Source of the DNA: Rhodamnia argentea
Lineage: Eukaryota > Streptophyta > Magnoliopsida > Myrtales > Myrtaceae
Direction: 5' to 3'
Length of the DNA: 64,000 nucleotides
Assembly: GCF_020921035.1 (NCBI RefSeq)
Contig: NC_063151.1
Location: 26,294,934-26,358,933 of the forward strand
Numbering within the stretch: the first letter of the stretch is position 1; the number at the start of each line of letters is the position of its first letter. The notes beneath the pieces were generated by a model. That model was not told where the DNA came from, did not search any database, and was given only the letters and a program-made list of their open reading frames with translations. Both the position numbers and the translations under genes were made by a program. Positions 57,398-61,372 of the stretch are shown here, in pieces.

Positions 57398-57998
57398 TTA
57401 GGGATAATCGTCAACAAAGTCGTAAACTTATTGTATAACAGTCAATTCAGTCTTGAACATTTCGATTGTATCAATTTAGTCATAAATATTTTGGCGATTT
57501 GTCAATTCGATCCTTCCGGTCAATTTTGGCCAAAAAGTCTTGACGTGGTGATGTCCATTTGCGTGGCACGGCCAGCGGTGACATGATCAATTTTTTTTAT
57601 TTTTTCATTTCTTTTCTTTAGAGTTTTCCCTGTGGCTGGCTATTGGCCACAGGTGAGGGCATTGCGGCCCTTGCCAACCATCCCTCACCCAAGCTTGCTT
57701 GTCGCTGGCCACCGCCGGCCACACAAAAAAAGGAAAAGAAAGTAAAAAAGAAAAAAAGAAAGGAACAAATCAAAAAAGTAATAAAAGAAAAAAAAATACA
57801 AAAATTGTCCACATCGATTACGATCGTGCCTTGTAGAACGACCAACATCTATATCAGCATTTTTTAGCCAAAGTTGGCTGAAAGGATTACATTGATAAAT
57901 CATCAAAAGATTAATAACTGCATTGGCACGATTGAAAATTTTAAAACTCAATTAGTTGTCGAGCAATAAATTTAAGACTTCGTGGACAATCATTCCCA
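57398..57998. mobile_element. TIR fold-back element
   Basis: The left end GGGATAATCGTCAACAAAGT pairs with the inverted right end GGGAATGATTGTCCACGAAG; both continue TC.TAAA[CT]TTATTG. The subterminal arms (CGGTCAATTTTGGCCAAAAA against the AGCCAAAGTTGGCTGAAAGG region) also pair. The short GC-rich core at about 57640-57720 has GGCCA/TGGCC words. Non-coding. Flanks AAGTCGTTA and ATATAGTTA could be a decayed 9-bp target duplication. Confidence 0.65.
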
Positions 57999-58084
57999 TA
58001 TAGTTAATTTATAAGTTTGTCTTTCAAGAGATTTAAGCGGATGTCATCTATAGTATCAAATATGTAAATCATAAAGTTAATATT

Positions 58085-58950
58085 GGTTGTATTTAGGAAG
58101 GGCTTTCCCAAGGAGCTTTGGGCTAAAGTCTAGGTGTTTGGTAAATTTTTTCAAAACATCTTTAAGCTAAAATGAGCTTTCAAAATATTGAAAGCCCAAG
58201 ATAGGGTTGCCTTAGCTTTCCAACATTCTCGGCAACGTCCACTCCTGCAAGCACCTCGCCTCCCAGATCTGCGACGCCTGCTCCTCTGAGCCCGCCTCCA
58301 CCTTCTGCTCCACCGAGGACCTTGCCCTCTGCCGCGACTGCGACCTCGATGGCCACGGTGGCAGCTCCGCCTGCTCCTCCGAGCTCGCCTCAGCCTTCTG
58401 CTCCTCTGAGGACCTTGCCCTCTGCCACGACTGCGACTCGATGCCCACAGCGGCTGCTCCGCCTTCCAGATATGCGATGCCTGCTCCTCCAAGCCCGCCT
58501 CCACCTACTGCTCCGCCAAGGACCTCACCCACTTCCATGACTGGGACCTCGATGCCCACAGCGGCTACTCTGCCTCCCACATCCGTGACCCCTCCGAGGG
58601 CTTCTCCGATTGCCCGTCCTCACTCGAGCTCGTGTCGCTATGGGGCCTGGACTTGGAGACGTGGTTCGCATTCAAGAAATGACGGTGCCGAACGAGAAGG
58701 TATCGAAGAGCTGTAGAGGCTTGCGAGCTTGCCGATGTCGGAGAACAACAGCCATAGGGACGGTGGAGCCGAGTTGGATCCAAATCCGAAGGATTTCTCC
58801 CCGTGGCTAGGATTTTTTCCCGAAACCTTAAATAACTTTCCAAATATATATTTACCAAACAATTTTTGCATTTCACCAAATCTCTTCAGACTAAAGGCAT
58901 TTGCATTTTCCCAAAGGCTTTTCCCAAAAGTTTTTCCAAACACAACCATT
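58085..58950. mobile_element. TIR element that captured B-box zinc-finger gene fragments
   Basis: Ends: left GGTTGTATTTAGGAAGGGCT, right (minus strand) GGTTGTGTTTGGAAAAACTT. Both arms also carry TTTGGGC/TTTGGGA, CTTTAGTCT-like words and TTTGGTAAA about 60-100 bp in. The plus-strand body codes for a B-box finger, CDACSSEPASTFCSTEDLAL then CRDCDLDGH, with exact Cx2Cx8Cx7Cx2Cx4H spacing (about 58262-58343). A second, shortened copy follows (ACSSELASAFCSSEDLALCH), and a third (CDACSSKPASTYCSAKDLTH, about 58468-58540) runs on to GFSDCPSSLELVSLWGLDLE and a stop at 58679. One base is missing between copies 2 and 3 and key residues are lost in the third. Source is likely a CONSTANS/BBX-type gene. No transposase is present. 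Confidence 0.7.
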
Positions 58951-59164
58951 AAACAATCAACTAAATTGGCAAATGAAGATCATACCCTATGGGATTGACG
59001 GACATATACAAAATAACCGCGAAGAGCGTAAGAGCTTGGTAGGTCTTGTCCCGCGGAAAGACAGATAGCTCCTACACTGGCGAGAGCTAGATTTTAATTT
59101 ATCTGGAAATTCCCAAACGACTAGTGAAAGTGTCATTTCTTTTGATCATGTACCAACATTTAGG
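58951..59164. other. Short intergenic spacer
   Basis: AT-rich, no gene or repeat recognised. Confidence 0.4.
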
Positions 59165-59815
59165 GTCCATTCATTTCGTGAAAAACATACATCTTCCAGA
59201 AAAATGTTTTTTGAATTTTTCGACGTTCAGTTCACAGAAAATAAATTATTCAAAGAAAATATTTTCCGTCAATGGAAAAAATACCTTCAAAAGTAGCGCA
59301 AATGATTTCCTTTTTTTGTATAGAGAAAATCGTTTTCTGTAGAGACCAATCTCTCTTTTCTATTTCCTCTATCTACATGTTTCGAGTTTTTTAATAATAT
59401 TTTATTTAAATAGCTTTTCATTTTTATTTTCTTATTTTCTGTCTTTTTCTTTTTTTTCTTTCTATGCCCGACGATGGCCAGCAGCCAAGCAAGCTCAACC
59501 TCGAGCTCGCCAACGATCGGTCGTGATGGAGGAAGCAGGAAAAATAAATAAATAATAAATAATAAATGATAAAAATAAATAATAAATAAAATTCGACTCT
59601 TTTACAAAAAATAAACGAAAAAAGAAAATAAAAAAGGAATTATTAAAAGGAATGCACGGAGAAAAATCAAATTCGATTTTCCATACTAAACAGTAAAAAA
59701 TATTTTTCAGTTCATTTTCGGGTTTCAAGTGAACACAAAAAAATATTGTCATTTTCCTGAAAAAAACTTCCCGAAAAACATTTCTTAAAAACATCACATA
59801 CTTTCACGAAGGAAG
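59165..59815. mobile_element. hAT-like MITE/TIR element
   Basis: The left end GGTCCATTCATTTCGTGAAA with CAGAAAAATGTTTTTTG pairs with the inverted right end CTTCGTGAAAGTATGTGATG with AGAAATGTTTTTCGGGAAGT. The theme (GTTCRTTTCGYGAAAA and GGAAAAT words) matches abundant plant hAT-type MITEs. The interior is A/T-rich with a small GC island at 59465-59525. No ORF of meaning. Confidence 0.55.
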
Positions 59816-60361: not shown

Positions 60362-61372
60362 GGGAAAAATTCAAAAAAGGGGCTGAAGTCCTCTTGATTT
60401 TTCAAATAAGGCACCAAAGTGAATTATGTTTCAAATAAGGGCTCGAAGTAATATAGTACGTTTCAATTGAGGCCTGAAGTGGTTATAATGTTTCAAAAAG
60501 GGTCTGGCTTTAAGGGTATTTTCGTTATTTCACATTTTAATTTTTTTTATTATTTTTTTTCTTTTTCTTGATTAAAAAAATATATGCACAGGCGGGAGGG
60601 CTGCCCTCCCGCCTGTGGCCGCCGGCCCGCCGCTGGTGGGGGTCGGCGGGCGCGGCGAGGCCGGCGGGGTCGCCGGCGACCCCGGCGACCCCGGCGGCCC
60701 CGCCGGTCAGAGGCGAGGGCCTCTGGCCCTCGCCAAACCGGGAGAGGGTCGGGCCCTCTCCCGGATCTGGGCGAGGCCGGCGGTCCCCGCCCAGATCGGG
60801 GTCGCCGGCCGTCGCCCGTCGCTGGTGGGGGTCGCCTGGTCAAGGCGACCCCGGCCCAGTCCCGGGCGACGGCCGGCGACCCCGATCTGGGCGGGGACCG
60901 CCGGCCTCGCCCAGATCCGGGAGAGGGCTCGACCCTCTCCCGGTTTTGGCGAGGGCCAGAGGCCTCGCCTCTGACCGGCGGGGCCGCCGGGGTCGCCGGG
61001 GTCGCCGGCGACCCCGCCGGCCTTCGCCGAGCCCGCCGACCCCCACCAGCGGCGGGCCGGTGGCCACAGGCGGGGGCAGCCCTCCCGCCTGTGAACGTAA
61101 ACTTCTTCCTCTGTTTTTTTTTTTTTTTTTTTTTGGAAACAGATAACAAAATTTATAATAAAAAAGAAAAAATTAAATAAGTAAAAAGACTAAAATACCC
61201 TTGAATCAGGCCCTTTTTTGAGATTTTAAGGTCATTTCAAGCCCTTATTTGAAAAGTGTTCACTTACTTTCTATTGAGAAAATATGAGGACTTCTCTTTT
61301 TGAAACAGTATTCACTTAGGGCCCTTATTTGAGAAAACATGAGGACTTCGGGCCCCTTTTTGAATTTTTCCC
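60362..61372. mobile_element. Non-autonomous Mutator-like fold-back element, whole, with 9-bp target duplication
   Basis: Terminal repeats: left GGGAAAAATTCAAAAAAGGG; right, inverted, GGGAAAAATTCAAAAAGGGG. Both sides carry a perfect 9-bp duplication ATTTGTTGA (60353-60361 and 61373-61381), the Mutator-type length. Almost the whole 1011 bp is one imperfect palindrome: the AT-rich arms (GAAGTCCTC, CAAATAAGG words) and the very GC-rich body (about 60590-61095) pair with each other, e.g. GCGGGAGGGCTGCCCTCCCG at the left of the body and the matching GGGGGCAGCCCTCCCGCCTG at the right. The long overlapping frames on both strands of the body are by-products of GC-rich symmetry; none has a transposase. 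Confidence 0.88.

Follow-up and report, generated by a model that had tools for sequence, protein, structure and literature searches.

A probable fossil Pack-PIF element carrying fragments of a CONSTANS-like gene and an ARM-repeat gene in Rhodamnia argentea

Introduction

B-box zinc-finger sequence enclosed by terminal inverted repeats (TIRs) raises the question of what such a locus represents: a gene, the remains of one, or gene fragments carried by a transposon. Here, this question is addressed for a locus of Rhodamnia argentea located in a stretch of 64,000 nt, which was analysed as a whole and is referred to as the window. The genome searched was the window's own (346.7 Mb in 74 contigs; contigs and loci are cited by C and L numbers). 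Taken together, the results point with high probability to a degenerate, non-autonomous Pack-type PIF/Harbinger element (Pack-PIF) that holds captured pieces of two genes and persists as a fossil carrier.

Anatomy of the element

The element spans 863 bp of the window (58085-58947) and is flanked by ATT on both sides. Its left end starts at 58085 with GGTTGTATTTAGG and its right end closes with CCAAACACAACC at 58947. Read on the opposite strand, the right end is GGTTGTGTTTGG, an imperfect counterpart of GGTTGTATTTAGG, with 12 of the first 15 bases in agreement. An earlier note on this DNA had described a TIR element with three B-box copies at 58085-58950, and the TIRs, the ATT/ATT flanks and three direct repeats were indeed found. 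The start holds, whereas the end has to be drawn back to 58947, as 58950 includes the putative 3-bp duplication. The body of the element is GC-rich, and its parts are as follows.

58082..58084, no strand: putative left target-site duplication ATT, 3 bp, identical to the ATT at 58948-58950 and not the canonical TTA/TAA
58085..58947, forward strand: very probable non-autonomous Pack-type PIF/Harbinger element, 863 bp, recognised by its TIRs, by terminal-region matches and by a 4.8-kb relative with transposase ORFs
58085..58229, forward strand: 5' terminal and subterminal region, 76%, 81% and 84% identical to the 5' ends of L002, L006 and L022 over ~104-142 nt
58230..58371, forward strand: captured BBX/COL fragment, copy 1 of the B-box 2 segment, 88% identical to the parent gene (L004:1476-1618), breakpoint placed by eye
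58372..58463, forward strand: copy 2, shortened and with a 1-nt deletion, 89% identical to the parent over element positions 284-384, breakpoints placed by eye
58464..58700, forward strand: copy 3 and exon tail GFSDCPSSLELVSLWGLDLE, in a different frame from copies 1-2, 86% identical to the parent (L004:1501-1744)
58704..58814, forward strand: second captured fragment, exon of an ARM-repeat gene (plant U-box-like ARM), 87% identical over 111 nt to L009:1501-1611
58821..58947, forward strand: 3' terminal and subterminal region with TIR, 76-91% identical to other genomic copies and 84% to L080 and L081, which have transposase ORFs
58948..58950, no strand: putative right target-site duplication ATT, matching the left ATT

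The terminal regions match at least 37 other places in the genome (among 40 scored of 199 candidates), and the terminal repeats bound many genomic copies, as the earlier transposon reading predicts. At 863 bp, the element has no transposase of its own, and a Pfam scan of five translated frames returned B-box families only. Scans of the whole window with Rfam and for tRNAs (the latter with the bacterial code) gave 0 hits each.

Source of the B-box copies

A repeat search located three direct copies of 116 nt starting at 58257, 58350 and 58460, of which the second shares 65% and the third 82% identity with the first. The exact Cx2Cx8Cx7Cx2Cx4H spacing that had been claimed for copy 1 is indeed present there (CDACSSEPASTFCSTEDLALCRDCDLDGH). 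The 166-aa stop-to-stop frame covering copies 1 and 2 is recognised by the Pfam zf-B_box model (E=2.6e-9, 37.5 bits with a cut-off of 24.1), and its first 75 residues resemble the CONSTANS B-boxes of solved structures (E=1.4e-6). The shortened second copy and the third copy are also present as described, both diverged and with ligands lost, and the CONSTANS-like tail corresponds to the parent exon sequence after B-box 2 (PAEGFSGCPSSLELASLWDL).

The BBX source gene that had been proposed exists in the same genome. Outside the elements, the best match of the B-box part in the genome search is C1:33249191-33249434 (86% over ~244 nt, E=6.2e-73), and an identity of 86% is, as a DNA match, far above chance. 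In this parent gene (L004, C1:33249012-33249442), one reading frame encodes two B-boxes and contains SQICDACSSEPASAFCSAEDLALCHDCDLDAHAGCSASHARDPAEGFSGCPSSLELASLWDL, and the CCT domain lies 2.2 kb downstream at C1:33251653-33251733. By its motifs the gene resembles the COL13/14/15 group, and a paralog more distant than the parent is located at C6:24036861. The window copies are 86-89% identical to the parent by BLAST and 85-89% in the alignment. All three align to a single parental stretch (L004:1476-1744) consisting of B-box 2 and what follows, which argues that they are the product of an internal duplication and not a natural B-box pair. A reading of the copies as the parent's B-box 1 plus B-box 2 is ruled out, as each of the three matches the B-box 2 segment. 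The COL part is confined to one exon of the parent, the first. Elsewhere in the genome B-box domains are clustered, with six listed at C9:14170069-14213075 and four at C8:11370717-11393505, a pattern that suggests tandem arrays of B-box genes.

A second captured gene and the sister elements

The description of the feature as a plain TIR element with a BBX capture was right about a gene-capturing TIR element, but incomplete in that the PIF/Harbinger affiliation and a second capture had been missed. Window positions 58704-58814 are 87% identical over 111 nt to C9:25765016-25765126, part of an ARM-repeat gene at C9:25764995-25765630 (L009). The next exon of this second source gene encodes Arm repeats (PF00514, E=1.4e-32) and matches the plant U-box ARM region PF25598 (E=2.2e-20).

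Six other elements share the capture, the sister counts from DNA searches being lower bounds. Four of them are COL+ARM chimeras with a common junction, namely L002 (C1:32384.5k), L003 (C9:14548k), L005 (C1:15572k) and L006 (C2:11614k), and two carry the ARM part only, namely L022 (C9:3675950-3676613) and L075 (C9:~3688k). In 5/5 COL-carrying elements the COL piece is followed by ARM position 1501 (1508 in L005). The chimera is found at five genomic loci with related PIF/Harbinger ends on one or both sides, one recognisable end being missing in L003, L005 and L006. The two ARM-only elements lie ~12 kb apart and share an ARM breakpoint at gene position 1640, a spacing that local hopping or segmental duplication would give.

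The fullest sisters retain more of both sources than the window copy. COL sequence is kept from 17 bp upstream of the parent start codon in L002 and L006 and from 14 bp inside in L003, and the ARM exon, the intron end and the next exon are kept in L002, L003 and L005. The intron remnant of L003 ends with TTTTGCCTCAAG, and that of L005 is near-identical (splice sites by reading). The intron sequence kept in the sisters shows that capture of the ARM part was from DNA; for this part, capture via spliced RNA is ruled out by the intron end and acceptor in L003 and L005. The window copy begins at B-box 2 and ends within the first ARM piece, and is therefore best read as an internally deleted descendant.

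The B-box 2 segment is single in L002, L003 and L006, whose COL deletions measure 27 nt, 11 nt and several times 25-28 nt, respectively, while L005 keeps the exon tail only and is thus uninformative on B-box 2 copy number. Triplication is found in one of the four elements able to show it, so that the internal amplification claimed earlier applies to the window copy and is seen only there; the sisters with a single segment could have lost other copies. In L002, a stretch of the sequence that separates the COL piece from the 5' TIR (L002:1171-1297), also found in L006, is 85% identical to C3:11909272-11909395 (L079). This locus is at most a possible third captured source, there being no clear coding gene at L079, and the segment is absent from the window copy.

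Coding state and possible activity

Several features distinguish the window copy from a functional BBX/COL gene: there is no upstream in-frame ATG, the frame is broken, ligands are lost and no CCT domain was detected by Pfam in the scanned frames of the element. The 166-aa frame has its first Met at residue 76, downstream of the B-boxes, and the frame of copy 3 (ORF 58410-58682, 90 aa) is devoid of an ATG. In copy 1, the last His of the parental HAGCSASH is gone. Copy 2 has lost its first Cys and has a 1-nt deletion ahead of its His, which places copies 1-2 and copy 3 in different frames, and in copy 3 two zinc Cys are lost, with HFHDW where the parent has LCHDC. At the ORF level, the combination expected of a B-box microprotein, a start codon and an intact B-box in a short ORF, is absent from the window copy. 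Due to the missing upstream in-frame ATG, the frameshift and the lost ligands, it is unlikely that the window copy makes a working B-box peptide, and the B-box-like peptides envisaged in the earlier note are not borne out.

It is very unlikely that the captured BBX copies give rise to B-box micropeptides or small RNAs acting on the parent COL gene. Such a role would fit the 86-89% identity to the parent and the reported action of the B-box microproteins miP1a/b on CONSTANS in Arabidopsis (PMC4807768). It would also fit L002, the sole sister seen with an ATG-led frame carrying an intact first B-box, in which a new ATG opens a frame of 84 codons (L002:1280-1597). However, the parental ATG of L002 is lost, and its B-box, which scores 25.4 bits in the genome search, reaches 23.7 bits when the frame is scanned alone, with a cut-off of 24.1. 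In the window copy, the lack of an upstream in-frame ATG, the frame break between copies 2 and 3 and the loss of ligands argue against a peptide. Furthermore, its repeats are direct and the repeat search, done without folding, listed no long inverted repeat in the body, leaving no evident hairpin precursor for small RNAs. Still less credible is a broader scenario in which the Pack-PIF family yielded candidate single-B-box frames, transcribed copies would serve as dominant-negative microproteins or siRNA sources directed at the parent COL gene, and the duplications of 93 and originally 111 nt would be relics of coding constraint. Most likely, the window copy has no activity at the protein level and survives as a fossil mobile carrier of gene fragments. 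For annotators this is a warning that a fragment above the Pfam B-box cut-off is transposon cargo here and not a BBX gene.

Assignment to PIF/Harbinger

The TIR pattern gave 295 matches in comparison to 101 for a reversed control. The transposase domain search covered PF13359 (DDE_Tnp_4) only; this domain occurs within 2 kb on the inner side of 10 of 83 TIR sites (≤1 mismatch) and on the outer side of 0/83, with a chance expectation of ~0.0009 PF13359 domains per TIR site (calculated from 150 listed domains). A relative of 4.8 kb, L081 (C9:5354070-5358869), has both ends (GGCTGCG.../...CGCAGCC) and encodes DDE_Tnp_4 (E=4.4e-10) and the Myb/SANT-like domain Myb_DNA-bind_3 (PF12776, E=2.6e-21, L081:2849-3295). 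Its termini match those of the window element in 5' pieces of 45 and 30 nt (82-87%) and over 113 nt at the 3' end (84%). A TAA stop (C9:5355128) falls within the first DDE half of L081, which may be defective. L080 has transposase ORFs and a related 3' end, and no far end was found for it in 5.9 kb. The locus at C2:768k (L076 and L026) was rejected as a complete transposase-bearing partner, with no matching far end in ~5 kb.

PIF/Harbinger elements create a 3-bp target duplication, usually TTA/TAA. The 3-bp flanks are TTA/TTA in L022, TAA/TAA in L081, ATT/ATT in the window and GTA versus TTA in L002, and among apparent relatives AAT/AAT (L015, L016, L029), TAT/TAT (L018) and TAG versus TAA (L028). 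The flank match of the window copy is only 3 bp and could have arisen by chance. In rice PIF sets, TTA/TAA accounts for only 52.4% (PMC8903248). Judged by its termini and the transposase domains that accompany them, the element family is PIF/Harbinger.

Membership of another TIR superfamily (hAT, CACTA or MULE) is more improbable again. The ATT of the window is non-canonical for PIF, and AAT/AAT and TAT/TAT surround several apparent relatives, but termini of this type enclose elements that have DDE_Tnp_4 and Myb/SANT-like ORFs together with TAA/TAA flanks, the flank pairs match over 3 bp and not 8-9 bp (by eye), and the TIR does not start with CACTA. Least probable of all is a decayed BBX gene duplicate, segmental or a retro-pseudogene, with TIR-like sequence nearby by chance: although the body alone is B-box pseudogene-like and above the Pfam B-box cut-off, it is a partial exon only, fused to an unrelated ARM gene, the junction recurs at five dispersed loci, where one end or both have related termini, and the ARM intron remnants in sisters argue against a spliced-RNA origin of the ARM part.

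Age, drift and origin of the repeats

The history of the Pack-PIF element was approached with a COL distance table and tree of nine rows (the parent, the C6 paralog, the three window copies, L002, L003, L005 and L006), from which L022 and L075 are absent, having no COL sequence. The ARM distance table comprised the gene and six elements, with L075 left out, and pairs sharing fewer than 60 sites were unscored in the distance tables. In the tree, 89% support separates the COL pieces of the elements from the parent and its paralog, and the branch leading to the parent is a short one of 0.013 substitutions per site. Support at nodes near the window copies is 33-50%; with the element group this poorly resolved, the order of duplication and spread and a single post-capture origin of the three copies are what we infer. 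COL distances are 0.11-0.17 to the parent and 0.16-0.27 among the three window copies, and by this comparison the duplications appear to date back almost as far as the capture itself; the triplication would thus be old.

Changes in the window copies at codon positions 1/2/3 number 11/14/12, 5/4/4 and 5/4/5. In the four sisters no third-position excess is significant (p 0.066 to 0.88), with L002 (19/43, p=0.15) and L003 (19/40, p=0.066) leaning towards third positions. The seven element rows thus give no significant codon-position bias that would indicate selection on the captured frame, in a test of low power in which the presumably constrained C6 paralog is unbiased as well (24/23/29, p=0.39). 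As the paralog shows no bias either, the test lends weak support to neutrality. C-to-T or G-to-A accounts for 34 of the 64 substitutions that the window copies show, a share that fits methylated, silenced DNA and that a GC-rich source would also be expected to give.

Judged by eye, the repeats are joined at CTCCGCC-like motifs, which occur repeatedly in the exon, and the shared sequence measures ~3 bp at one join and ~6 bp at the other. The copies are spaced by 93 and 110 nt, and as the second spacing includes the 1-nt deletion, both repeat units were probably multiples of three. Such frame-preserving units could result without selection from codon-phased motifs in a GC-rich exon.

The most probable course of events would begin with a single capture of the COL and ARM pieces, in line with the 89% split of the element COL pieces from parent and paralog, followed by spread via transposase supplied in trans. 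An internal deletion would then have shortened the window copy. Early in the life of this copy, its B-box 2 segment would have been duplicated twice in tandem at the short GC-rich CTCCGCC-like microhomologies, with drift after the duplications.

Neighbouring features of the window

A GC-rich foldback is located at 60587-61093, with arms of 168 nt (60658-60825 and 60856-61023) that are 91% complementary across a 30-nt spacer, extended by arm pairs of 62 nt and 20 nt. The long open frames on both of its strands are probably compositional. Around the foldback, outer inverted repeats of 19-22 nt (60365-60447 and 61206-61294; 81-95% complementary, ~0.8 kb apart) may mark the two ends of a further small inverted-repeat element. 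Beside the Pack-PIF element, 57405-57999 and 59160-59815 look like small transposons by eye, with weak terminal inverted repeats; the repeat search found mainly A/T-rich inner pairs in both, which makes them putative transposons only.

Comparison with known systems

The locus provides a clean, traceable example of a PIF/Harbinger family that has captured two genes in a plant genome of 347 Mb. Both sources, their common junction, an intron remnant, the five chimeric copies and a relative that carries transposase ORFs have been identified. A limited literature search established no precedent for transposon capture of a BBX gene, which does not prove that there is none. Pack-TYPE elements occur across TIR superfamilies, PIF included (PMC8903248), and the same paper reports a cluster of Pack-PIF elements in maize that contain pieces of one or two genes (Zm-Pack-PIF cluster 18; Gisby and Catoni 2022), so that the word unusual in the earlier note was too strong. 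The maize cluster is likewise non-autonomous PIF/Harbinger, holds fragments of one or two unrelated genes and is present in many copies (PMC8903248). It comes from a different plant, however, and averages 402-535 bp with 97-98% identity to its sources, whereas the elements here measure ~0.7-1.4 kb (L022, the window copy, L002), are 72-91% identical to their sources by BLAST and older, and include one copy with part of the captured exon triplicated. Within the genome itself, L081 has related termini and a 3-bp A/T duplication, but differs in its DDE_Tnp_4 and Myb/SANT-like ORFs.

The long TIRs and 9-11 bp duplications of MULEs contrast with the element family here, which has 3-bp duplications and DDE_Tnp_4. 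Capture of gene parts and transduplication are shared with Pack-MULEs (PMC8903248). The same source describes captured sequence present more than once per element in Os-Pack-Mariner cluster 217 group BB; there the whole smaller element is repeated and explained by fusion of neighbours, whereas here ~93-110 bp of exon are repeated in tandem. Its capture model, in which neighbouring insertions fuse, would be compatible with the COL+ARM family (PMC8903248). The window element is an older Pack-PIF with an intra-exon triplication, of a kind already known and mostly ordinary.
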